Shown here: in pieces, positions 3,246 to 49,471 of the stretch
Numbering within the stretch: position 1 is the stretch's first letter
How the letters are laid out: each line of letters begins with the position of its first letter
Assembly (NCBI RefSeq): GCF_963678975.1
Contig: NC_089279.1
Span: 31,398,660-31,462,659, forward strand
Direction: 5' to 3'
DNA from: Dysidea avara
Taxonomy: Eukaryota; Porifera; Demospongiae; Dictyoceratida; Dysideidae
Length of the DNA: 64,000 nt
The notes under the pieces: generated by a model
The model's database searches: none
The model's input: the letters and a program-made list of their open reading frames with translations, nothing else
Told to the model about the DNA's origin: nothing
Translations under genes and position numbers: made by a program

Positions 3246-3900
3246 AAGTCTATATCATAATGGCAAAGGTCTATGTCATAATGAAAAAGTCTATATCACA
3301 ATGGCAAAGGTCTATGTCATAATGAAAAAAGTCTATATCACAATGGCAAAGGTCTATGTCATAATGGTAAAAGTCTATATCACAATGGCAAAGGTCTATG
3401 TCATAATGAAAAAGTCTATATCACAATGGCAAAGGTCTATGTCATAATGAAAAAGTCTATATCACAATGGCAAAGGTCTATGTCATAATGAAAAAAGTCT
3501 ATATCACAATGGCAAAGGTCTATGTCATAATGGTAAAAGTCTATATCACAATGGCAAAGGGTTATGTCATAATGGTAAAAGTCTATATCACAATGGCAAA
3601 GGTCTATGTCATAATGGAAAAGTCTATATCACAATGGCAAAGGTCTATGTCATAATGGTAAAAGTCTATGTCATAATGGCAAAGGTCTATGTCATAATGA
3701 AAAAAGTCTATATCATAATGGCAAAGATCTATGTCATAATGGTAAAAGTCTATATCACAATGGCAAAGGTCTATGTCATTATGGAAAAGTCTATATCACA
3801 ATGGCAAAGGTCTATGTCATTATGGAAAAGTCTATATCACAATGGCAAAGGTCTATGTCATTATGGTAAATGTCTATATCACAATCTCATAATGGCAATG
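3246..3900. repeat. Minisatellite, 41-42 bp unit, about 16 copies
   Basis: Tandem units alternate two similar half-units, 'atggcaaaggtctatgtcata' type and 'atgaaaaagtctatatcaca' type, so there is also an inner period near 20 bp. Several units are exactly 42 bp, which keeps one frame open and gives a repetitive peptide of the type MAKVYVIMKKVYIT. With no flanking gene or conserved start I treat this as a by-product of the repeat, not a gene. Small indels between units point to slippage or unequal exchange. Confidence 0.9.
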
Positions 3901-33900: not shown

Positions 33901-36900
33901 CAAAACGGCATGATATAGTGAGTTCCTTCTAAAGGAGGGGCCAGTCAATAGCTTCCACCAATCCAATTTGGCTTTGCTCAACCTTACAGAACTTTCACAC
34001 TATACAAAACACTAAGTTCTCTTCACAGCAGTAGGAAGCGTAACATGCCTTGTATCATTAGTGATGTCATTTGTACAGATAGTAGTATACTGGTCTTGTG
34101 ACACTGTTTCTGATCTCTATTATGAGTAGTACATCTATTCTTGTTGGTTACAAACGTACACTATGTATTGTTACGAGGTAGCTGTAAGAAGATTTTGGAA
34201 CACATGTATACTGTATGTAGTGTGATCCACCAACTTACACACTAGAGCATTTTTTTATACTTGAACTCAAGACAAAAAGAGAGATGTTTAAAAATGTACT
34301 CTTCTATTTTCTTGATGTCTACCTTATGGCCTAAAGTTATTGACACTTTTTATTCAGGGAGAATCCCAGATGCTATACTACTACTACACTGTATGTCCTA
34401 ACATTGTAAGGTTTTGTTGTATTTATACATACAGTAATCTGGGTGTTCTGGTATTGCAGATGGATTGGATTGTGTGGTTTTGTTAAGGAGAATGAAAAGT
34501 TTTGTAGGAAGTTAGGAACTAATAAAATGGTTTTACCAATTTGTAAAAAACTTAATTGTGCTTGGCCGTTATCACAGGAAACGTTCTTTTGATCATGAAG
34601 TGTTTACTTACTGTTTTTAAACACCAACTTTAATTATGTTTACAGCTATAAGAATTAAGGTTCGTCCAAAAATAATTTTTTTTGTGCCTTCTAGCTTTTA
34701 AAAGATTTTTGATTATCACTCATAGACACTTTGTACAGGTTCTGCCTTCTGTTCACCCTCCAGGACTCAGTGTTATTAGTTTTTCACATTTGAGAAGTCA
34801 CTGTACACCTTATCCATAAGAAAGAAATTTTGATGTGACAAGCTGCTGGAGTGCATACCTCTACTCTGAAGTTTGAAGGTTATAATCATACAGTATAGTA
34901 GTACTGTATTAGCAAGAGTTTATAATATACATACTGATGAGAGTAACTTACTCTCATATACCCCTGTAGAAGGACGTATCATGAAGTTATGACTTAGCAC
35001 TTCTGAGTTCACCTGTTTTTCTTTGTATAATTAATGATGTCATATGGTATCAATTGAACGTGTAGCTAACAACGTCCCTAGCAACCAAATTAACTCCAGC
35101 TCTAAGCATTTCTCACCAAACTACAATTGTTCCTTCATGGGTTAAGATCGCTTCGTAGGCATTTCTTGCTAGGCCATTTGCGAATATGGCTATCCTGAAC
35201 ATCACGAGTGTGAAATGATGCTAACGATTCTTGCACTTTTACGGCTGTTCGTACGTCACAAACCACAACATCTTGTCATTACATCATAACTTCACGATAT
35301 ACCCTTCTACAGGGTATATGAGAGTAGGATACTCTCCTCGGTATATATATATATATATTATGTATTAGGGATCACAGAGATTTGTAATTTTCTTCATTTG
35401 TAATGCTGTGTAGTGGCTGGCTGAATGGCTACTTTACTTTTCAGTAATTGATAGTTGGGATGTGTATTCAGACGAGATCATTAATTATAGTACCATTCTT
35501 TGTTTTGATGTGATATGTGCTGGTTCACCAGTCATAACTATGTTGGATTATAGCCATAAAAGTAGTGAAACAAGGGAGGTCACCTACATACTAGTGGACA
35601 TTTAATCCATATTTCAGGTATAGGAATGTAATGTCCACTTATCTGCAGGTGTAGGCAACCTTGATCTTCTACTTGTGAAGTGCTGTATACCACCGTGTTA
35701 GTGGGTGTTTCTTTTTTGTCTGTCCCATTTTGCTATTAGCATGATACAATGGGACCTGTAGAGTATGGGCATCTTGGGAACATCATAAGCAACCTGTCCT
35801 GATTTTCCATGTCTGAGGGAGTCCCAAAAAACTGTGTATATATACAATGTTTCAGTTCTTAGTTCAAAGTCTGTGCTCTTACAGAGGCTGTGATATGTCA
35901 GTGTTGTCATGCTTAATTGATGTTTTAACAGTATGCTTTGCAGAGGGGGTGCGCATAAGAGTACATTCGTGAATTGTTGAAAATTGTGAATTTCCCTTAT
36001 AAAGAGGGGTCCTTAGTTAAGGGGTGTATAAGCTACTCGTACTGTTGATTTGAGACCTATTCAGATGTCCTTTATGAACAGGTTACTAACAATTCAAGCG
36101 CATCCTTTGTATACATTCACACCAAAGGATGCCATCTATCCCATAATTGTTTGAGTGAAACTATATACCACTTGTGAAAGTGAATCACATGCATTGATTG
36201 TAGCCTTACTTGGCAGCCACCTCCTACAATAAGACCACCTCTTTTTAGTGGCTAAATGTGCCACATTCACTTATGATTGAGGCGATGGTTTTGGTCCCAT
36301 ACATAAGTAGGCCTGTCTATTCAGTTTCTTTTAGGAAAGGGACAATGAGTCCATTTAATCTCTAGGTGTATAGCCAGCTAATACCTTGACAGTTTTTTAC
36401 ATCACGCACATATGAAGGCAGTTTTATTGAAGAAATCATGATGATCTTGTTTACGTTTACCATACCATAAACAAGCGCATGTGACACATGTACCATTGGG
36501 GATGAACTAATAATTATAAGACATTCAAAATCTCCATGAGCAGGCAAATAAGATGGTGTATAGGTTCAGTTGATTTGAGACTTGGTTTTCTGAGAAATAG
36601 CTCGAGTAAATATTTGCATATTTTTTTCTTGTATGAGTGCATCACATGCTTGGATATCTTGTATTGGAGGCTTTTATGTTATGACGTGTGTGATTCTGCA
36701 AAGAACAGCCAGTGCATCGTGATATTCTATCGTGCAACTCTGGTTTTGTAGAAAAATAATTTGTATGATTATTATTGAGATATTGAAGTTGAAAATGTAT
36801 CAATTACAAGATCTAGCAACTTTCACAGACATGTTTGTAATAGCATGATGATTTCTGAATGTTTCAGGTTCCATTGAATTTGTAATTTGCCCATCAGACT

Positions 36901-39900
36901 TTGTGGTATACATGACATGGCCACTATAATGAGGTGGTCTTATTAATGAGGTGGCTGTTTAGTAAGGTTTCAGTGTACAACAATCTTTGTTCCATGGTTC
37001 AGGTTTTACTTTTATAACTTTATACTCTGGTGAATACTACAGTAACTGGAAAGTGGAAAATCAGGACACCTCTGATTGGTCCTGTCTGTTGTCACACCTT
37101 TTGGCAGAATTTCTTATTCAAGCAATTATTTATTTTAATAGTGTGGTCTAAGCATATTGAGATAGTGAGAAATCATCAGCTGTTGCATTAAAATGATATA
37201 TATGGTTTTGCTTCAACTTCCTTGTATGGACATTATTTCACAGTCTATTGGTTGTCATACACCTGTTATGAATTCTTCAGTTAATTTGTGGTCTTCTTGG
37301 TAGACTGATATCCTTGTGTTAGTCATTTCTTGTGTAGGAAGTATACTTGATATCATTAGTACGCCTACCTTTTGGTGTGTGCGTGTGTGCACGCGCGCGT
37401 AGCGCTCGAGCGTGCAGATGTGTGTGGTGCAGTGTCACACACGCACACTGCACCACACACATCTGCACGCACTCGAGCGCTACGCGCGCGCGTGCGCACA
37501 CACACACACACACCACGATCTCACTTGTTTATTATCTGCATTATGGCAAAGTCTCAACAAACACAAATTTGATAAATGAGTGATTACACAGGAAATCTCA
37601 GTAGTCAAAATCATGTACGTACCTCTGCACCACACACATCTGCACGCACTCGAGCGCTACGCGCGCGCGTGCGCACACACACACACACACACCACGATCT
37701 CACTTGTTTATTATCTGCATTATGGCAAAGTCTCAACAAACACAAATTTGATAAATGAGTGATTACACAGGAAATCTCAGTAGTCAAAATCATGTACGTA
37801 CCTCTGCACCACACACATCTGCACGCACTCGAGCGCTACGCGCGCGCGTGCGCGCACACACACACACACACCACGATCTCACTTGTTTATTATCTGCATT
37901 ATGGCAAAGTCTCAACAAACACAAATTTGATAAATGAGTGATTACACAGGAAATCTCAGTAGTCAAAATCATGTACGTACCTCAGAATCCATATAGTCTG
38001 TTCCTCATGTACATTATAATTGGAAGAAATTGGGATTCAATTATTGTTCACCCACTGCTGTTGGTGTTCACTCAAGGATATCCTTAGTGCTAACTGTGTG
38101 GAAGTATTGTTCCTTGGGAGTATGCTGGTACACAAATCAACACCACTCACTTTTCTTCCTGTGGATCAATCTTTATCCCCTCTGGGAGATTCGCCCACCT
38201 GGCCAATGAGTATTTTATTTTACAAACCTTTTGAGTTTAGTCCAGGTGAGGGTACTTCCCAGTAGGGTGGATAGGCAATAGTGGGTACTTGGATCAGGGG
38301 CCTGGTCTGTAGAAGGAAAGACGATGTGTATGCATGATGTAAACCTTGTTGTTGGCCTACAAGAGATCCATGCCCCCAGCTTGGACTCCACACAGTTGGG
38401 GACAGGGCTGCTGCCATGAGCAACACCAACAATGACCGTGTGTGTTACACAGGTCTACCTACCATGAGGAGGTTGGCAGCATACATGCACGCATGCATTC
38501 TAAGCACCAATGTGTACAAGGTGTATGTCCAAGTGCAGACAGTTACAGTAAATATTAAACAGTAATCCTTCATCACTATTGTGTAATCCCCTTATGGCTG
38601 CTGTCACCATGGTCGATGTTATTTATTACCCAGCTAGTATAAAAGTGTCTGTTATGTCTGTGACAACATGGACAGTAGGACACTTCTAGTTTTAGGGGCA
38701 GTGTTTGTACATTAGGATGATCACACATATGTACACTTTCTCTACTATACAATGGTTTACTTCAAGTAGAAGCATAGGTGTAGACTTCAGGTCTGTATGA
38801 CATACGTACTGGTCTGTGTTATAAAGTCTTTCACACATGCAAGTGTAAGGCTTGAGGAAGGGAGTGTTTATTTCATTTTGTTTTGCCAATTGGTTTTCAT
38901 ACTGTGTAGACTCCAAGTGAAAGTGGTTACATTATAATGTATGTAGGAGGTTGAAGGCTTACAAATGACAGTGGTGATATACAGTGTCACAATACTGTGT
39001 TCTGTTCTTGGAAAGATGTAATTCGTGGAGCAAACGTAAAGGGATTTCTCTACATTGTATGTTGAGCTGAAATCACTGTCAGTAGTTGTGTACAGATATG
39101 TGCTGCCCATGGGATGACAGAAAAGGGAACAGTTGTAAAGAGTGTTTAGTAGTGTACACAAGTAGTCGAATCATTCCCTTAGAACCTGTACAAGTACTAT
39201 GGTGGTAATGATATTATCCCTAGTATATGGACAATTCCTTCTACATTGTAATCACACTACTTCAGCCTTGTTCTATATTCATTTTATTTGAGCTGAAGCA
39301 AAATATCTTCTTTTTAAATTAGTATCTGAACAGTCACTTCAATTCAGATATAACTGAAGGTTAGATACTATATAAGTCCTACTGGAATGTGTAGAAATAG
39401 GATATGTGGTACATTGTTATAATATTGGAAGTACAGTACAGTTACGTGTGTGTGGAGTATGTATTTTATTTACTATGGTAGATCATGTTACTTACAATGA
39501 ATTATCATGTACAAGAATATTACGGGTGTCACTATTGGTTAATAGGAATCAGATGTCCGGTGTGTCGAAGTCGTATTCCTATTAATTCATTTGAGAATCA
39601 CATGATGAAGTGTTTGGAACCTAAACTGTCATATAATGGTGAGTTTGTGTGTGCATATGCATGTATGTATGTGTTGCAGCATAGCCAAGTGGCTAGAGTA
39701 TCAGCCTGGTAATCGAAAGGTTCCCCGGTTATGCCAATTCGGTGTTGTTTTTGTTTCCGTGTCAAATGGAGAAGCAGCCCATAACATCAATGGGTACCTG
39801 GTGTTTACTGGGACAGCAAATGCCCAACTGTCCTTGTCTCGCTTAGTGGTGTTGGGGTTGTTGTGGAACTTTGGGTTCCGTGACCTCTCTCCATTTTACC

Positions 39901-42900
39901 GGACAGTCCTACTAGTCCTGGCCCAGGAGAATTTTCCTGCACAAGCCTCAAGTGCCTGAGTAGTGCACAGGCATACCAGTGCTGGTTTGCTGGGCGGCAA
40001 TAGCTGTGTTTCGCATGGCTGCCAAAGACTTTGCTTTGATTTATGTATGTGTTGTGTGTGTATGTATGTGCGTGCATGCTGTTTCCTGTTGTCAATATTG
40101 TTTTACTTTGTACAGTATCTCAACTGGACCATGACGCTGGAGAGTGTATCATTTGTCTAGAAGATATGGTTGTTGGTGAGAACACTTTGTGTACTGAGCA
40201 TGTGTAGTAAACAAATCATGTTGAAAGTGGTGTACTCAAGTATACCAAATGACATGGGTCTCTCAGATCCACCTTGCTCTCCAAGTATTTACAATGAAAA
40301 TAGGTGAAGCATTCTAAAAATGGACTACATCTTTGAGCAATTTATTATCTCTATGTCATCGTTAAACCAGCTGGCTATGATCCTTCCCTTGTTCTACATG
40401 ATTGGTGGATCAATACCACAGTCAACATGTACTTTAGAATAGATAGCCCTAAATGTTTTGAAAAATTGTTGGGACTCAAGAGCATTACATTATTTTTAAG
40501 AATATAGTCAGGGGAAGTTGGTCACTCTTCATAACCCTACAATTACACAACCAAAACCAAGCATTGTTCCAGGTGTAAATGCTTCTTTAACGTCTTTGAA
40601 AACAGTGTGCTGTGCTGAGAAGGCTTGTAATTGCCCTGGGATGCATCGGTATGGATATATGATCCGTCCTTTAGAATACACAAGTACAACGAGAAATAGT
40701 TCGATTAGGGATCAAAGAAATACAAAGTAGTGAAACAAGGGAGATCGCCTATACCACTTCAATCTCTACTTCAGTCTATAACCATGACTGAAGTAAGGAT
40801 TAAATTTCCACTAGTATATCTGCAGGTGTAGGCACAGTCAATCAGGCAGTCAGTCAGTAGAAAATTCCACTGAATAAATTAAAAATTGTAGCAACCTATT
40901 GAAAGTGTTTTAGATCGTATTGAAGGTACTTTTGGGCTTGGTTATACCTAACCAATACTGCCAAGGCACCATGAAGGTGTATTGTGAGGCTGGTTTTAGG
41001 GTGATATTTTTTTCATGATCCCTAATGTACGGTACTACTGTACTATATGATTAGGGATTAGGAGGTGTCAACATTTCATGAAATGATGACATACGAGTGT
41101 TCTTCCTCTGGAGTATATCATCTTCAGTTTTGAGGGCAGAAAATCTGTAATTGAGATTATTATTGGTGTGCGCTATATTGGAATGTATTTAATAAATCAA
41201 AAACTGATCATGAAATATTTGAAGCATTAGCACTCACATAGCTATCAATTAGTAGTATGGAGGTGTACAATAATTGTATGCTATTACTAGTAAATCTTGT
41301 GTGTATGTGCATAGATAGCATATTTCTGAAAGCTCACATACAAATACTACAATGATTTCAAATGTACATGGATGATTAAATACCTGTGCCTACAATAATT
41401 ACCTAGATTTAGTACTAGTCCAAAATACTTAACGTGTTCTGCCTGTCACACATTGCATCTTCTCTTTCAGGTGACTCTATTGCAAGACTACCCTGCTTGT
41501 GTGTTTATCATCAAAAGTAAGACTATAACATGTGTGACTGTCTCAGCAAAAACCCGCCTAGTTCACACAGCATGCATTTTGAGAAAAACGAAGTTCAAAA
41601 AAGAAATGGTGAATTTATGCATGTTAGTATGCAAATTTTAATCGAGCAGGAAAGGAAGTCACAAATCAATTAAACCTATACACCATCTTATTTACCTGCT
41701 CGTAGAGAGGTTGAAACTCATAGTTTATTTATTTAGCCCCAATGGTACGTGTGTTACATGTGCTTGTTTATGGTGTGGTGAACGTAAACAAGATAGTCCA
41801 GCGCCTAAGCCAAATATTTGTTCACTTTTTGATAAAAGCACCAATTTTTTTACAGAGTATATGGAGCATGCACTAAGTGTTTTAAGAAGGGGAGGCACGT
41901 AAAAAGTCCTCAGGAACACCCCTTTTTGCACCCTGACAAGAAAACTATTTGTTACTATTAAAAATCAATCGTGTTTCTATCAAGTTAACTGCTGGGCCTA
42001 GTATCATAGTAGTACAAAGCATACAGCTGGAACATATTAGCCTATTAGTAATCTATAAAAAACAAATAGTTTTTCTCACCTAGGCAGTAAACAAAATCAC
42101 TAAAATTTCCATTTGCAGGGATTCTGTTAAAGTTTTGGACCTTCAATGCTGACGATTGTGTAGTACTATGCACAAGGATCATCCTGATGTGTATCGTTTC
42201 TTTATTAAAGGGGTATAACAAAAGTTATTTAATGCTAAAGTCACAGGTGGATATCTCAACAAAAAACCATGAACTACAGCAGTTCAATTATCAAGTACAG
42301 AGCTTGAACAAAAGGTCCCTTGTCCTTATACTGGGCACCATATGAAAGGTAATTAAATTTATAGTTTAATGAAGGCAGTTGCAAGTTGTTTCAACATCTT
42401 GTTCTCAAGTTATAGCGCTTTCAATTCAGTGTAATATAGTATAAGCAAGAAAAGCACAAGGAAGTGTCATAAGGTACTTCTTAGTGCTCAAAATCTCACT
42501 TCATTGGAACCTAGCTCCTTTATGCTTATTTTGAGCATTATCACAGCACTAAGAAATACCTTAATACTCATCTGTGTGCTTTTCTTGCTTATAGTACAGT
42601 AATTATGTAAGTCAACCTCACACTAATTGCAACAAAAGCAAACTCAACAGATTTTGTTTCCTTATTATGTCCTCAATGACAGAAAAAAAGTCCTAAGGAA
42701 TCCTCGTGGGGGAACAGTGTGAAAATCATTGAAATAAAAACCCACTTCTTTGCTCCTTAATGGTTTGATGTTTTTACAGTTTTTATAGTCATATCTCAGC
42801 TAGGGTATTACTTGTATCAAAACTTATTATACCACTAAAAAGCTCTCGCAAAGATGAATCTTTTGGTACTACAATTATCACCTTAGGATAAAGTGTTAAC

Positions 42901-45900
42901 AAGTTATAATCAAATATAATTAATAATATACAGTGCTATCAAAGAGACTGTAGCAAACGCCCTTGTATGACTACTCAAGTGTGCCAATACCATTGACGTA
43001 AGATGTGTTTGTGCAGCCAGTTCTCTTGCAGTTACCACAAGCAGGAGTGCACTCATTATTGTGCTTCTTGCACGAGCATCTTAGATTACTGCAGTCAGTC
43101 TGTCAGTTGCATCTGATCACCAGCAGCAGATGTTCAGGACCAGGAGGTAGCGGTGTTTGAAGTGGCACAAACCCCTCTTCACACTCTTACCATCCCCAGT
43201 CTCTGGGATGAAGTTCTACAGCTAATCCTTTCATTCTTGAATTTGAAGGTACACGTGAAGGATGTGGTACTTTGCTGCTGCTAAAGTTGGTGATAAGGAT
43301 GCACCTTTTCACAAAACCATTTATGTCAGAGAGAATCTAGTGTGTCAGTTAACATTCCATTGTAGACTAGTGCTAGAGCTTTCTCTCCTGCATTTATCAC
43401 ATCATGTGTGGAGGCTGAATCAGAATGGAACACTTTTGCTTGCTCACGCAACATACTGCTTGCTTTGAATTTGCTAAGGGGTGTCTTTTTTTCCAATCCC
43501 ATAGAGATGTGATGTTCCCAAGAATAGCATGGATGAAGAGGATGTTGCTACAGATGTCTTGACCAAGCTTTTATTTTGCGGCTCTGATGTTCCAGATGTA
43601 AAGCTTTTTAGTGTTTTTCTTTGGCTCAAGACGAAAGAAGATGTCACGGTAGTTTAGACTTGTGTGGTAGCAGAGCAGAACAATGAGGTCAGTGTCTTTA
43701 CCAACTAGCACAGTGGTACTGGTGGTAGCAGATTGAACATCCTTCTGAACAATCAAAAGATCAGCATCTCCTGGTGCATGGTAAGTTTTGTAGTTACTTT
43801 TGTACTCAGCATGAAAATAAATTGCTGCTCATTTGTTCAGTTGGACAAAAACTGGTCCTTCTTCATTTTGATGGTCATGTTAGCAGCAACTGTCACAGTT
43901 GCACCAGCCATTCCTTTTGACTGCCTCTGATGTGTCATATCTTTTATGTTCATATTTACATAGCTATCAAATACAACTATGGCATCCTTGTACTTTCTTG
44001 CTGCATATTCTGTGTACTGGTGGCAGATGTCTTCATAATAGAACTGCGCGACCATGCATGGTATGCATTGTAGAAGTGTTCCACCATCCAGGACATACTG
44101 AATGCCATCATCTGGGTGGAATATCTGCTAGGACACCACTTTCACAGATCTTCTATTGCATCAGCAAGTGCTGGCTAACTTCTACACAGCTCATGTTTGA
44201 AGGTTAACTCCAGATCATCTGATGATTACATGACAGTAGTAAGTCTCTGATCTGAAAGAGGAGCAGAGGATCAACCTGAATCCCTCCGAAGATGACCAAA
44301 GATGACCAAAAATCTCTCCTTAGATGAAAAAATTATAGACCTGCCATTGCTTGATGTGGTTGGCATTGGCTCCTTCCTCTTGGTTGGTGTCTTTTGCTAT
44401 TTGGTGTGGGTTGAAGTATTTGCGGCAACATTGCTGATGTACTACTTCCCCAGGCATAGTACAAATGCTGTCATTCCTGGAAATACTGACCTGGTTGATG
44501 GTTGAACTATCCTTTGCTGTTCGAATAGAAGATGGGACACCTGTATCTGCAGAAGTCTTGTAGATGGTGCACAATACAGGTTGTGCATCCATTGCTGGAA
44601 TAAGAATTGAGAATATTTGAGCGAGCTGGAATACGGAATGATCAGCTTACCTTTATCTAAAAGTCTCTGGTTCATTCCCAGGTTTCAGCACCTAATCAAG
44701 ATAGACAAAGTTTGCCCTGACTTGTTCAGTTAGTTAGTAAGTATTCTTCTCATGCTATTACCAGCATTAAAAAGCCACTACAACTACTCTGCCTTATATA
44801 CCATACAATGTTGGGCCCGATCATTCTCATTGGTAGATGTGATATTTTGCGCATCCACAACATAACCTTTCTCTGCTGGTTGAAAACTCTCAAGCTCACT
44901 ATAGTACTCTGTAGCATGCAACAACATGCATAAAGGTATTACTACAGTAGTTACAGTTGCAAAACATGTACACATACAAAGAGTAAGCAAATCCAGGATA
45001 TATTTAATTATACCTCATTAACACATTTTCCTAAGGTGATAATTTTAGTAACAAAAGATTTGTCTTTGCGAGAGCTTTTTAATGGTATAATAAGTTTTGA
45101 TATAAGTAGTACCCTAGCTGAGATATGACTATAAACACTGTAAAAACATCAAACCGTTAAGGAGCAAAAAAAGTGGAGTTTTATTTTAATTGTTTTCTCA
45201 CTATTACCCCATGAGGATTCCTTAGGACTTTTTTCTGTCATTGAGGACATAATAAGGAAACTAAATCTGTTGAGTTTGCTTTTGTTGCAATTAGTGTGAG
45301 GTTGACCCAATATTCTTGGTAAAATGCCTGTACTATTATGCTATATTACACTGAATTGAAAGCGCTGTAACTTGAGAACAAGATGTTGAAACAACTTGCA
45401 ACTGCCTTCATTAAATTATAAATTTAATTACCTTTCATATGGTGCCCAGTATAAGGACAAGAGACCTTTTGTTCAAGCTCTGTGCTTGATAATTGAACTG
45501 CTGTAGTTCATGGTTTTTTGTTGAGCTATCCACCTGTGACTTTAGCATTAAATAACTTTTGTTATACCCCTTTAATAAAGAAATGATACACATCAGGATG
45601 ATCCTTGTACATAGTACTACACAATCGTCAGCATCGAAGGTCCAAAACTTTAACAGAATCCCTGCAAATAGAAATTTTAGTGATTTTGTTTACTGCCTAG
45701 GTGGGAAAACTATTTGTTTTTTTTATAGATTACTAATAGGCTATTATGTTCCAGCTGTATGCTTTGTACTGCTATGATACTAGGCCCAGCAGTTAACTTG
45801 ATAGAAACATGATTGATTTTTAATAGTAACAAATGGTTTTCTTGTCAGGGTGCAAATAGGGGTGTTCCTGAGGACTTTTTACGTGTCTCCCCTTCTTAAA

Positions 45901-46358
45901 ACACTTAGTGCACGCTCCATATACCCTGTAAAAAAATTGGTGCTTTTATCAAAAAGTGAACGATTATGTCAATTTTAAGGGCTTATGTACTGCACTAAGA
46001 TGTTCATCATTTCTTCAATAAACTTCATACGTGTATGCACGTAACCATACCTTTGTTGATCTGCCAATCCATGGTGTACATTTTAAGATGCCAACTCTGT
46101 AGCATAATGCAAATGGAAGCCCGCCCCTTCACAAAACTTTGGTGATCCATTCGTTGGACACTGTAGGTAATGCTGAGAATATAAAAAAAGTTCAGAAGTT
46201 GTGCAAGCTAGGCAGTTTTTTTGCTGAGATGGTCACGGGCTATACATGACTGTATTAAATGCTCAACATCCCTTCTTAGGTGTATAGAAAAATGGCTCAA
46301 AATTAAGCAGAGTTGTCCAGAACATCCAACTGATCTAACCACCACTGATTCCTCTTAA
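30908..46358 (+). CDS. ZNRF1/2-like: ZNRF1/2-like E3 ubiquitin-protein ligase
   Basis: Five exons, 218 residues: 30908-31286, 39546-39638, 40116-40175, 41471-41516, 46280-46358. The start MGGRQS is a typical N-myristoylation signal, as in vertebrate ZNRF1/2, and a low-complexity Ser/Arg-rich region follows to about residue 125. Exon 2 gives a zinc finger C130-x2-C133...H145-x3-C149. Exons 3-5 give the RING: C168/C171, C186/C188, H191, C194, C205 and H208, the last in the family's SCPEHP ending. It should transfer ubiquitin at endosomal or lysosomal membranes (family knowledge). Length is slightly below vertebrate ZNRF1 (about 227). Intron 1 is over 8 kb and repeat-filled. Intron 4 is almost wholly a transposon, so the RING is split across 4.8 kb. 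Its 3' end is convergent with FITM2, 162 bp apart. Confidence 0.88.
31819..32203. mobile_element. MITE-like element with 21-bp inverted termini
   Basis: Starts with ccatattgtctcgaattacag and ends with its inverse (one mismatch). The inner arms share a 'gtttat(t/a)...gagacca' motif. It is in ZNRF intron 1. No target duplication could be assigned. Confidence 0.6.
32565..32970. mobile_element. PIF/Harbinger-like MITE
   Basis: Inverted termini of about 33 bp start GGCCACTCCAAATAAATT and end with the inverse. A TTA trinucleotide flanks both sides (32562-32564 and 32971-32973). A three-base TWA target duplication is the mark of PIF/Harbinger. It has no coding and lies in ZNRF intron 1. Confidence 0.75.
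33522..34125 (+). mobile_element. Terminal-inverted-repeat element, family X, copy 1
   Basis: It matches the reverse complement of 55776-56433 along its length. Shared landmarks are 'agggattggaaatggtgtca' at the head, 'ggaacagaaac', 'tgataccaaaac' and 'ttgctcaacctta'. The right end is a diverged inverse of the left. It is in ZNRF intron 1 and no intact protein is seen. Confidence 0.7.
34939..35336. mobile_element. MITE family R3, copy 1
   Basis: Inverted termini of about 55 bp contain 'catatacccctgtagaagg', and the inverse precedes 'actctc' on the right. A second copy lies at about 63611-64000. It is in ZNRF intron 1 and non-coding. Confidence 0.75.
35572..35655 (+). repeat. Dispersed repeat R5, copy 1
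   Basis: Shares 'agtagtgaaacaagggag' and '(t/a)atctgcaggtgtaggca' with 40727-40850. It is in ZNRF intron 1. Confidence 0.55.
37372..37447. repeat. Inverted partner of the following tandem array
   Basis: This purine/pyrimidine-alternating stretch (gtgtgcacgcgcgcgtagcg) is the reverse complement of the start of the first tandem unit that follows, so the two can form a hairpin. Confidence 0.75.
37448..37982. repeat. Tandem array, three units of 177-179 bp
   Basis: Units begin at 37448, 37625 and 37804 and are nearly identical. Each has 'ctgcaccacacacatctgca', an alternating CG/CA block (gcgcgcgcgtgcgcacaca) and a unique half through 'gtctcaacaaacacaaattt'. The high identity implies recent amplification. 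It lies in ZNRF intron 1. The open frames across it are artefacts. Confidence 0.93.
39679..40034 (+). mobile_element. tRNA-derived SINE-like element, copy 2
   Basis: The head is 'atagccaagtggctagagta' (A-box-like), then 'ggttccccggttatgcc' (B-box-like) about 30 bp on. The body matches 19277-19684 on the other strand. It is in ZNRF intron 2, between the zinc-finger and first RING exons. Confidence 0.65.
40727..41045 (+). repeat. Composite of repeat R5 and the 3' part of repeat R1
   Basis: 40727-40850 resembles 35572-35655. From about 40842 the sequence continues with the R1 tail ('gggcttggttatacctaacc', then 'ggctggttttagggtgat'). It is in ZNRF intron 3. Confidence 0.6.
42442..42591. mobile_element. 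Small palindromic MITE nested in the transposon's left arm
   Basis: The termini 'taagcaagaaaagcaca' and inverse sit next to 'ta' on both sides, and an inner palindrome ('cttagtgct...agcactaag') adds a second stem. The equivalent place in the right arm lacks it, which shows insertion after the arms arose. Confidence 0.75.
42930..44592 (-). pseudogene. Broken transposon protein with Cys-rich (tesmin/TSO1-like CXC) tail
   Basis: Fragments in several minus-strand frames line up in one order. 44592-44320 (MDAQPVLCTIYK...) gives an N-terminal part. 44055-43837 contains VVFDSYVN and THQRQSKG. 43756-43571 contains TVLVGKDTDLIVLLCYH and the end KLYIWNIRAAK. The frame then goes on to ICSNILFIHAILG. 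Near 43050 a Cys cluster follows (LRCSCKKHNNECTPACGNCK), which looks like a CXC zinc domain. The acidic VGKDTDL motif resembles a metal-dependent nuclease core (inference). Similar proteins of unknown function occur in many invertebrates. Stops and frame shifts show that it is dead here. Confidence 0.55.
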
Positions 46359-46520: not shown

Positions 46521-47294
46521 TTAATGCTGTTCTTTAAATAGTTCTTTTGTTGTGTAGTCTGGCTTGGGTAGAAACCAGATGTTGCCATACATTATACAAT
46601 AAGTGATATACCAAGATAACACAGCTACAAGGAATCCAAGTATCTTTTCTGGCATAGTATGGAAATACAAGTTTGTTGCTAAAGTCATTATACAAGCCAG
46701 TATGATTATGAATGTTGCGTACCAACGTAACCAGTTTAAAACTGATGAAATCTTCTTGTAACGTCTTAACAAGATAGGACGATGGAGAATATTTTCAGCT
46801 TTATTCCAAGTTTGTGGTATAATTGGGATGCACTCTTCTGTAATTACAAATATGATGTAGCAAAGAAGAAATGTATGTCCTGAAATATCAAATCCATACC
46901 AAATTCCTTTATTGCTGTAACAAGGTGACTTGTGCACAAACCCAGCTTTGGAGCACGTGCCAACATTATCATCCAATATCACAAACGCTGTGGTGACTAC
47001 AAACCAGATCACGTGCGATATTACAATTCTAATACAATTCTTCACAACTCCAGCTCGAGATCCCAATTCGTATACATAAGAGGTCAGAATCACTAAAGGA
47101 ACTAGCAGTAACAGTGTCCAACCCCAGCTGAACTTCACAAAAGCTTTGTTGAGAAAGTTCTTCGGATTGTCGAAGTAGGCTGGAGGCGACAGTGACAGAG
47201 AACACAAGGTGCTACCAACTATTACAGTCACGAACAGAAACAAAATCTTGGTTTTAACGTTTGTATATAACACCAGGTTCTGACACGATTCCAT
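46521..47294 (-). CDS. FITM2: FITM2-like fat storage-inducing transmembrane protein
   Basis: Single-exon gene, 257 residues, close to vertebrate FITM2 (262). FIT proteins are ER membrane enzymes of the lipid-phosphatase type that cleave acyl-CoA and support lipid droplet budding (family knowledge). The signature FDISGHTFLLCY gives the first catalytic His (H140), and the second is H212 in YFHTMPEKILGF. About six hydrophobic helices are visible, with the conserved FVKFSWGWTLLLL segment near residues 52-63. The start is fixed by PNP1 lying head to head 121 bp away. The C-terminus ends KEQH without the vertebrate di-lysine style tail. Confidence 0.93.
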   Translation of the reverse strand: MESCQNLVLYTNVKTKILFLFVTVIVGSTLCSLSLSPPAYFDNPKNFLNKAFVKFSWGWTLLLLVPLVILTSYVYELGSRAGVVKNCIRIVISHVIWFVVTTAFVILDDNVGTCSKAGFVHKSPCYSNKGIWYGFDISGHTFLLCYIIFVITEECIPIIPQTWNKAENILHRPILLRRYKKISSVLNWLRWYATFIIILACIMTLATNLYFHTMPEKILGFLVAVLSWYITYCIMYGNIWFLPKPDYTTKELFKEQH

Positions 47295-47415
47295 CTTTCT
47301 GCCTCGCTTTTTTTGCTGAAGTTCTAATTAATGTCTTTTATGACTTACGTAAATTTCAGTAGTCTTCCGTACGGCTATTCTCACGAGATTTGTCTGATTG
47401 TGCCACGCTGAGGTG
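47295..47415. promoter_or_regulatory. Presumed bidirectional promoter of FITM2 and PNP1
   Basis: 121 bp between divergent start codons, with both 5' untranslated regions inside. A diverged copy of this interval lies at about 57372-57508 in front of PNP2, which shows it moved as a unit in the duplication. Confidence 0.6.
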
Positions 47416-49471
47416 ATGGCGGGAAGTGAAGAAGTTGTTCCTTTCGAGTATGTTCCAGAATTTGTCGTGCAGTCGCACATTAATGATGCATTTGTGTTTT
47501 CAAACTAGTTACGACTCAGTGAAGGAGGTAGCTGATTATTTGCTAACCATAACTGACGTTAGACCAAAGATCGGGATCATTTGCGGATCAGGTCTAGGTG
47601 ATTTGGCTAACCAAGTAGAGAATGCAGTGGAATTTGAGTACTCTAAAATACCAAAATTTCCCGTTAGCACTGGTGAGTGGGTCACAGCACAATACATAGT
47701 TACCTTGGTTGAAGCTGGTACGTGTGTGTGCATGCATACTGTGTATTCCAAGGCTGTTACAAGGCAGAGACACTATAGATCAGTGTAGTGTCTTATCGTT
47801 CACAAACAGCTACAACAACATCCTCTTGTTACCCAAACCAGTGGTCACTATGTGGTGCCACATGGCTTTCCTCTACAGAGGACACAACTATTGTGTTTGG
47901 TATAATTTGTGGGATAAGTGTTAATTCAAGTCTTTGTGCTTTAATGGTTTCTTCTCATACCCTTTGTCCACAAAAGCTAATGCCAAGAGTTAGTAATATC
48001 CTTTGTGTTAGCTCTTGAGTTTAAGAGGTACTAATTCTTTTTGTTGCCTTTTCCAATACAGTAGTACTATTTGTTTGTGTCACTGTGTTTTGTGCAGTTG
48101 TCGGACATGCTGGCAAGTTGATATTTGGAACAATCTCGGGTAAATCAGTTGTGTGTATGAAGGGAAGATTCCATTACTATGAAGGATACTCACCACAAAA
48201 GGTACAAGAAAGAGCTTTAACTAGGTGGTCACATTTTTCTGATTTGACATTAGATTACGATGCCAGTGAGAGTAATGAAACTATTAGGAGTTGAGATATT
48301 AATAGTAACAAATGCTGCTGGTGGATTAAACCAGAACTACAAGACTGGGGACATCATGATTATTAATGATCACATCAGTATTGTTGGTATGAGTGGGATT
48401 CACCCACTGATTGGACCTAATGATGACAAGTAAGTGGTGTGTGTAAGTGCGTGTGTGTGTGTGTACAGTCAGCACTATAAATAATAAAAGGTTTTACCAT
48501 TTTTGAGCCAGTCATTTTGTGTTGGTTATAAAGTGTATAACAAACTTACATCTTAAAAGAATTTTGGCTGCAAATACTAAAACTGGTGAGAAAATGGCCA
48601 CCTGTTATTTTCAGTTGTAGTGATGTGTATACAACGAAAGTAGTCATTAGTTTTGCAGTTATGTTTATGGGATGGTTCCTGGAATATTCAAATTTCTATT
48701 GTGCTAGGAGTTATTACATACTTGCACACTCTGTATGCATACAAAGTGCCATTCTCAACTTCAACTGCAGCAATACAGGATATGGCTTATCACAGTGTGT
48801 TCATTCTAACCTGTTTTACCTGTTGTTTTTTTTACAGGTTTGGTACCAGGTTTCCTTCTATCACATCAGCATACAATAAAGAGTTCCGTAAACTAGCAAT
48901 GGATACATGTAAAGAACTTGACATGGAGGATTACACACAGACTGGAGTCTACTTGCACCTCAGTGGTCCCTCGTACGAGACAGCAGCTGAGTGTCGCATG
49001 TTACGCGCATGGGGTTCAGATGCTGTTGGAATGAGCACTGCACCAGAAGTGGTTGTTGCTGTACACTGTGGAATGAAAGTGCTAGGTCAGCAACTGTATA
49101 AATACCGGAATTCCTACTTAGCAGCGAGTTACTGTAATTATGTGTATGCAAATTTACAATGGATATTTTAAGAATGCAAAAATTATGAAACCTTTTTCGT
49201 AGGTGGTTTGTTTGTTTTTTTCTTTTTAAATAAGGAATGTTGCAACAAGCAGAATCATGTACATTGTTTCCTGGTGTTTATAGCCACAATGTCTTCTAAT
49301 GTTACATCCCGCTTTTCAGGTTTATCACTGATCACCAACATGGTTGTGATGGACATTGACACAGAGGATGTGGAGCCGAATCACGAGGAGGTGTTGGAGA
49401 CAAGCAAGCGTAGAGCACAAGACATGCAGCAAATTGTGAAAAAAGTTATTACCAAGATGAACATATCTTAA
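47416..49471 (+). CDS. PNP: Purine nucleoside phosphorylase, copy 1 (PNP1)
   Basis: Six exons, 291 residues: 47416-47447, 47509-47672, 48098-48201, 48254-48429, 48838-49085, 49320-49471. Trimeric PNP family: splits inosine and guanosine with phosphate into base and ribose-1-phosphate in purine salvage (cytosol). Visible active-site parts: phosphate loop GSGLG (37-41), VGHAG with H69, GRFHYYEGY with R89 and H91, TNAAGG (119-124), GPSYET with E206, VGMST with M224, ITN with N248, and NHEE with H263. E206 and N248 match the residues that select 6-oxopurines in animal PNPs. Intron 3 is 52 nt. A possible polyadenylation signal ATTAAA lies at 49612. The first intron has an in-frame open reading from 47426, so an unspliced form would also be readable. 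Confidence 0.94.

Follow-up and report, generated by a model that had tools for sequence, protein, structure and literature searches.

Nested mobile elements in the RING-splitting intron of a ZNRF-like gene of the sponge Dysidea avara

Content of the last ZNRF-like intron

What fills the last intron of a ZNRF-like gene of the demosponge Dysidea avara, one long transposon or several elements lodged in one another? The gene lies in a stretch of 64,000 nucleotides (NCBI RefSeq assembly GCF_963678975.1, contig NC_089279.1, positions 31,398,660 to 31,462,659 of the forward strand), hereafter called the window, to which all coordinates refer. A preliminary description had read this insert as a single 4.7-kb transposon at 41524..46244, with outer arms more diverged than the inner arms, possibly through conversion between the arms. 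We compared each part of the insert with its other copies in the genome (550.8 Mb, 108 contigs; each search scores the best 40 candidates), and almost certainly the intron holds three nested mobile elements, not one. From the outside in, these are an old miniature inverted-repeat transposable element (MITE; level 1), a young foldback MITE inserted in it (level 2), and a core element with a decayed gene that sits in the loop of the foldback MITE (level 3). Genome copies of the parts begin or end at or near 41534, 41794, 42592, 45335, 45997 and 46236, and no copy boundary was observed at 41524 or 46244. Paralogous empty sites were found for both inner insertions, that of level 2 in level 1 and that of level 3 in level 2, and the left junction of each is unique to the window among the scored candidates. 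That transposon material makes up nearly all of the intron is confirmed, since it accounts for all but 60 of the 4763 nt.

The host intron, of phase 2, runs from GTAAGA (donor at 41517) to TTCTTAG (acceptor at 46279) and splits the RING coding sequence; the reading frame is continuous over the exon 4-5 junction (frame 0; the check covers exons 4 and 5). The 51-aa RING peptide, obtained by manually joining exons 3-5, matched ZNRF1 (PDB 5ywr, E 2.7e-22), the top hit among the 30 PDB sequences listed. Searching the genome with this RING gave 5 matches out of 11 candidates, three of them to exons at the window locus and the remaining two to different RING genes (42-43%), and the ZNRF1-like gene is, among these genome RING matches, a single locus. 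For a putative exon 2, a 30-aa piece chosen by eye remained below the Pfam cut-off (PRP21_like_P, E 0.00092).

Copies, ends and empty sites of the three layers

Level 2 spans 41794-45997, that is, 4204 nt with its insert. The search with 41524-42300, which scored the best 40 of 1826 candidates, returned 42 genome matches; the 39 first-ranked copies besides the window, 96-98% identical, all start at query positions 267-271 (window 41790-41794), and two additional short matches start at query 291. We fetched the 20 best-scoring other left-arm copies, hence a biased sample, and located both ends in 18 of them (L016 and L027 were dropped). These copies are 1436-1476 nt long, to be compared with 1457 nt for the window copy without its insert (4204 - 2744 - 3); all 18 start with TAGTCCAGC and end with TGCACTA, and the part common to the fetched copies corresponds to window 41794-42592 joined to 45336-45997. 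An exact 3-bp target site duplication (TSD) flanks 15 of the 18, against a mean of 1.2 and a maximum of 8 in 20000 permutations; for this and the following significance values, TSD letters were entered by hand and the right flanks were dealt out randomly 20000 times. The window copy carries AGA on either side. The genome copies do not contain the coding part of level 3; among the stop-to-stop frames listed for the window, those in its level-2 parts are up to 84 aa long.

The centre of all 18 level-2 copies reads GCTTATGCTATATT (13 copies) or GCTTATACTATATT (5 copies), with no core; at the same place, the window reads GCTTA, then the core from TAGTACAG to CTGTACTA, then TTATGCTATATT, the core being flanked by TTA. 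Across the left junction of levels 2 and 3 (query 42520-42680, best 40 of 245 candidates scored), only the window matches on both sides. Of the 40 candidates, 35 match the core side alone, from query 68-73 (73 being window 42592), and 4 match the MITE side alone, up to query 77-82, with 3 further short matches falling on the hairpin partner stretch. The 2744-nt core itself belongs to a repeated family, as the query 42700-45200 found many copies near full length at 80-92% identity (best 40 of 144 candidates scored). We fetched ten of them, which represent nine distinct sites (L063/64 and L065/66 have common flanks). All ten start with TAGTACAG or TAGTACAA and terminate with CTGTACTA, CTGCACTA, ATGTACTA or CTGTACTG, and five have an exact 3-bp TSD, a result equalled or bettered in 4 of the 20000 permutations. 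On the minus strand, the core retains protein pieces that include a cysteine-rich stretch, CSNLRCSCKKHNNECTPACGNCKRTGCTN, and a second stretch, GDADLLIVQKDVQSATTSTTVLVGKDTDLIVLLCYH. The frame is broken in each of the four copies read (the window, L069-L071), and inspection by eye puts a frame shift at one common position ahead of the GDAD stretch; because the four copies share it, the level-3 family probably multiplied with its gene already dead.

Level 1 is an old MITE of about 0.5 kb, now in two parts. The query 41517-41793 found 39 further copies at 72-78% identity (best 40 of 1352 candidates scored), 22 of which start at query 14-17 (window 41530-41533) and 34 of which reach query 275-277 (window 41791-41793), which is the query end. 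When the two flanks of level 2 are joined and compared with 11 other loci of the outer family, 10 align unbroken over the insertion point, and only L034 is split there. The outer-locus alignment uses nine of these 11 loci (L036 and L040 were left out), and eight more were added for the study of ends and TSDs, which makes 17 copies. The family has ends of the type GTGACCGTCTCAGC.../...GCTGAGAYGGTCAC, with variants, and measures 594-649 nt where both ends were located, in 16 of the 17 copies; the permutation was run on 16 copies (L047 was dropped, its right end not being located). A 4-bp TSD is identical in 10 of these 16 (ATAT in 7, AATT in 2, AAAT in 1), a score equalled in 67 of 20000 permutations because ATAT is so common. 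Without its insert, the window copy measures 496 nt and is missing about 100-120 nt present in its relatives. A partial level-1 copy is also found elsewhere in the window, at 36407-36620; it is 79% identical over the insertion point and has no level-2 insert.

Both outer layers resemble MITEs in being short and multi-copy, with terminal inverted repeats (TIRs), TSDs and a steady length. Level 2 has the uniform length, the many copies, the TIRs (96% identity between the arms of the window copy) and a TSD of fixed length; it differs in being long (1.46 kb, above the usual MITE size) and almost wholly inverted repeat, hence a foldback element. For level 1, TIRs together with a TSD of fixed length characterise the family; the window copy departs from it in having no such TSD in register. 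The coordinates of all the features are given in Table 1.

Table 1. Features of the ZNRF-like intron and of the nested elements (positions in the window)
Feature	Position	Strand	Details
ZNRF-like exon 4	41471..41516	+	46 nt; peptide ...CVYHQ(K)
Host intron	41517..46279	+	4763 nt, phase 2; GTAAGA...TTCTTAG
Left intron remnant	41517..41533	+	17 nt; GTAAGACTATAACATGT
Level 1, left part of old outer MITE	41534..41793	+	Starts GTGACTGTCTCAGCAAAAACCCGCCTAG; from genome copies, ends by alignment
Left level-2 TSD copy	41791..41793	+	AGA
Level 2, left part of foldback MITE	41794..42591	+	Starts TAGTCCAGCGCCTAAGCC
Left level-3 TSD copy	42589..42591	+	TTA
Level 3, core element	42592..45335	-	2744 nt; ends TAGTACAG...CTGTACTA; minus-strand coding remnants
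Level-3 left TIR	42592..42918	+	Best aligned 42611-42918
Level-3 broken coding region	42971..45014	-	Cysteine-rich CXC-like piece and piece ...GDADLLIV...VLVGKDTDLIVLL...; frames interrupted
Level-3 right TIR	44999..45335	+	Best aligned 44999-45306, 91% to left
Level 2, right part of foldback MITE	45336..45997	+	Ends TGCACTA
Right level-3 TSD copy	45336..45338	+	TTA
Right level-2 TSD copy	45998..46000	+	AGA
Level 1, right part of old outer MITE	46001..46236	+	Ends ...GCTGAGATGGTCAC; from alignment to relatives
Right intron remnant	46237..46279	+	Branch-like CTCAAC (by eye), pyrimidine tract, TTCTTAG end
ZNRF-like exon 5	46280..46358	+	Through stop codon at 46358; CIEKWLKIKQSCPEHPTDLTTTDSS*

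Order of insertion and alternative explanations

The puzzle of the arms is solved once the three nested elements are recognised, and gene conversion is then unneeded. A self-comparison, the kind of arm comparison suggested in the preliminary description, gives a 96% inverted pair at 41814-42444 / 45336-45967 (609 identical, 21 mismatched and 3 gapped columns) and a 91% inverted pair at 42611-42918 / 44999-45306 (281 identical, 26 mismatched and 2 gapped columns); by these column counts, divergence is greater in the innermost arms than in the middle arms. In the flanks outside 41814 and 45967, visible similarity between left and right is confined to roughly the terminal 30 nt (at 41534 and 46236), and the comparison of 41570-41813 with 45968-46190 yields a local score reached by 60 of 500 shuffles and a global score reached by 111 of 500. 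As the outer stretches score like shuffles, divergence changes stepwise and not smoothly: the pattern is that of three sets of terminal repeats, not of one pair with a gradient, and the supposedly more diverged outer arms belong to a different, older element and not to the inner one. Such nesting of inverted repeats that differ in age can mimic one element with an odd divergence gradient, a misreading of the raw sequence that is corrected here.

A single 4.7-kb transposon, its outer arms diverged or its inner arms homogenised by gene conversion, would explain why the sequence reads as nested inverted repeats around one centre and why the terminal 30 nt or so match each other, yet the genome copies of each layer end at boundaries of their own, with TSDs and empty sites of their own, the outer stretches inward of these 30 nt do no better than shuffles, and of the two arm pairs the innermost is the less similar. 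Copy boundaries and empty paralogous sites led us to reject this explanation, to which we give next to no credence. One point in favour of homogenisation comes from the level-2 family. Across 19 elements (the 18 copies and the window), the mean arm identity within an element is 0.978, compared with 0.974 (left-left), 0.974 (right-right) and 0.972 (left-right) between elements, and in 10 of the 19 elements, though not in the other 9, the two arms resemble each other more closely than either resembles its counterparts on average. Of the private variants, six are present in both arms of the element that carries them and 103 in one arm; if hits were independent and their rate uniform, about 0.1 shared variants would be expected. 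This gives a weak hint of occasional copying or homogenisation from arm to arm in the family; the six variants could also reflect mutational hot spots or subfamily structure, in a sample chosen for its likeness to the window. Of the 19, it is the window copy whose arms are least alike (0.959); it has 11 single-arm variants and none shared, and conversion is, therefore, not the cause of the arm pattern seen.

With three nested elements, the course of events was very probably the following. An old MITE with ends of the GTGAC(C/T)GTCTCAGC type entered a short ZNRF intron, of about 47 nt; this MITE then received a foldback MITE with TAGTSCAG termini, which duplicated AGA; and into the foldback loop went an element of 2.7 kb, with TAGTACAG termini and a defunct gene, which duplicated TTA. 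This last step may have taken place at the ZNRF intron or before the foldback MITE came there. In the latter case, levels 2 and 3 would have arrived as one composite, with two insertion events in the intron and not three. Both levels have TAGTNCAG ends and 3-bp TSDs, so that one transposase might move the pair; the left junction of levels 2 and 3 is found at no other place among the best 40 of 245 candidates, and we regard such a joint arrival as rather unlikely, keeping in mind that a second composite copy could be overlooked with 40 of 245 candidates scored. The nest showed no intact transposase, and its elements may well have been mobilised by transposases acting in trans.

Between the elements and the splice sites lie 17 nt on the donor side and 43 nt on the acceptor side, and not about 7 and 35 nt as had been estimated. 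An imperfect repeat of 9-10 nt flanks the nest (CTATAACATG on the left, CTATACATG on the right), and the residual intron amounts to 47 nt (GTAAGACTATAACATG plus ACTGTATTAAATGCTCAACATCCCTTCTTAG) with one copy of this repeat omitted or to 60 nt with both; the earlier estimate was about 42 nt. The comparison with small introns elsewhere in the window is borne out by one intron of the neighbouring purine-nucleoside-phosphorylase-like (PNP-like) gene (48202-48253, 52 nt, placed from the reading frame) and not by the second ZNRF intron measured (40176-41470), which at 1295 nt is not small. The 46-nt exon 4 is now flanked by introns of 1295 and 4763 nt.

The GT and the AG of the intron lie outside the elements, which agrees with the insertion into a short intron within the RING-coding part put forward previously. 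Insertion into a pre-existing mini-intron of about 47 nt, with its splice sites kept, is, thus, supported by what the sequence retains, and splicing would still proceed from the original GT and AG, untouched by the elements. The locus would then be a concrete case of an intron expanded about a hundredfold with its splice sites kept, through an ordered series of insertions into a conserved gene, those of the old MITE, the young foldback MITE and the core element. An introner, an element that supplies the splice sites of the intron it creates, has to be considered for the outer MITE, as the nest occupies almost the whole intron and the RING search gave no sequence without the element; however, the element includes neither the donor GTAAGA nor the pyrimidine tract and its TTCTTAG, the flank repeat lies within the intron and does not span the exon borders, and the GTGAC...GTCAC ends of the level-1 family offer no terminal AG. 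On the position of the splice sites, we consider an origin of the intron from the MITE very unlikely.

Several observations weigh against parts of the nested reading and of the mini-intron. The window copy of level 1 does not show the 4-bp TSD of its family in register (ATGT on the left, GGGC on the right), and the score of the flank repeat is reached by 125 of 5000 shuffles and by 109 of 5000 random window pairs; for these two reasons, the precise form of the empty intron is uncertain. A ZNRF allele, paralogue or related species with the intron empty was not found, the RING search giving the window locus and two other RING genes. An exact TSD is absent from 3 of 18 level-2, 5 of 10 level-3 and 6 of 16 level-1 copies, and the uniqueness of the junctions rests on left junctions, with 40 scored candidates per list.

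Nested transposon insertions are common in plant and animal genomes, and nested MITEs within introns are a known kind of thing. As in other nests, TSDs and paralogous empty sites accompany the younger elements lodged here in older ones; the difference is that three layers occupy what was presumably a mini-intron of a conserved gene. Nothing else is new: this is an ordinary nested insertion, and we do not claim that such nests are unreported.

Family assignment and neighbouring features

PIF/Harbinger elements target TWA. The level-2 TSDs, which include CAA, ACA, ATG, ATC, TGA, CAC and TCT, do not fit this target sequence and agree with PIF/Harbinger in length alone (3 bp, PMC2213677).

None of eight level-3 fragments from the window and four from other copies matched Pfam at the cut-off; below it were PRMT5_C (E 0.039), HDA2-3 (E 0.083), PMSI1 (E 0.71) and, for CXC, preSET_CXC (E 0.46 and 0.22). 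One fragment searched against PDB had no match up to E 5. The pieces GDADLLIV and VGKDTDLIVLL look to us like parts of a PIN/XPG-type nuclease; proteins with CXC and nuclease-like parts occur in animal mobile elements. Elements of the Academ superfamily have a 3-4 bp TSD and an XPG-like nuclease gene or Academ transposase. Level 3 is similar in its 3-bp TSD (exact in 5 of 10 copies, with L055/56 fitting 4 bp by eye), a criterion common to several superfamilies, and differs in that the fragments searched yielded no transposase, no helicase and no nuclease with Pfam support; no search supports a superfamily name, and we, therefore, left it unassigned. Literature searches on Academ with XPG and on CXC/PIN transposon proteins gave no family name for level 3, and the passages of PMC10045372 do not state the Academ TSD.

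According to the passages of PMC4455052, the Repbase rule for non-autonomous elements calls for the same TSD length and an alignment of positions 1-11 with one mismatch allowed. Levels 2 and 3 do not belong to the same superfamily under this rule, the first 11 nt (TAGTGCAGTAC or TAGTCCAGCGC versus TAGTACAGTAA, TAGTACAGTCA or TAGTACAGGCA) having at least two mismatches by eye. That the two levels form an undescribed group of DNA transposons whose members target each other, here in the foldback-MITE loop, is a distinctly doubtful proposal; its traits would be the TAGTNCAG ends, a 3-bp TSD without TWA preference, a gene combining CXC and nuclease-like parts, and foldback derivatives.

Beyond the ZNRF-like gene lies a fat storage-inducing transmembrane (FIT) gene (46521-47327, minus strand), tail-to-tail with it and with about 160 nt between the ZNRF stop codon and the end of the FIT frame, followed by the PNP-like gene (47417-49471, plus strand). 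The window also contains three tandem copies of a 179-nt unit at 37448-37983 (99% matching, with CA and GCGC runs) and, at 3246-3885, a tandem array with periods of 21, 42 and 125 nt and 93% matches at the longer periods.

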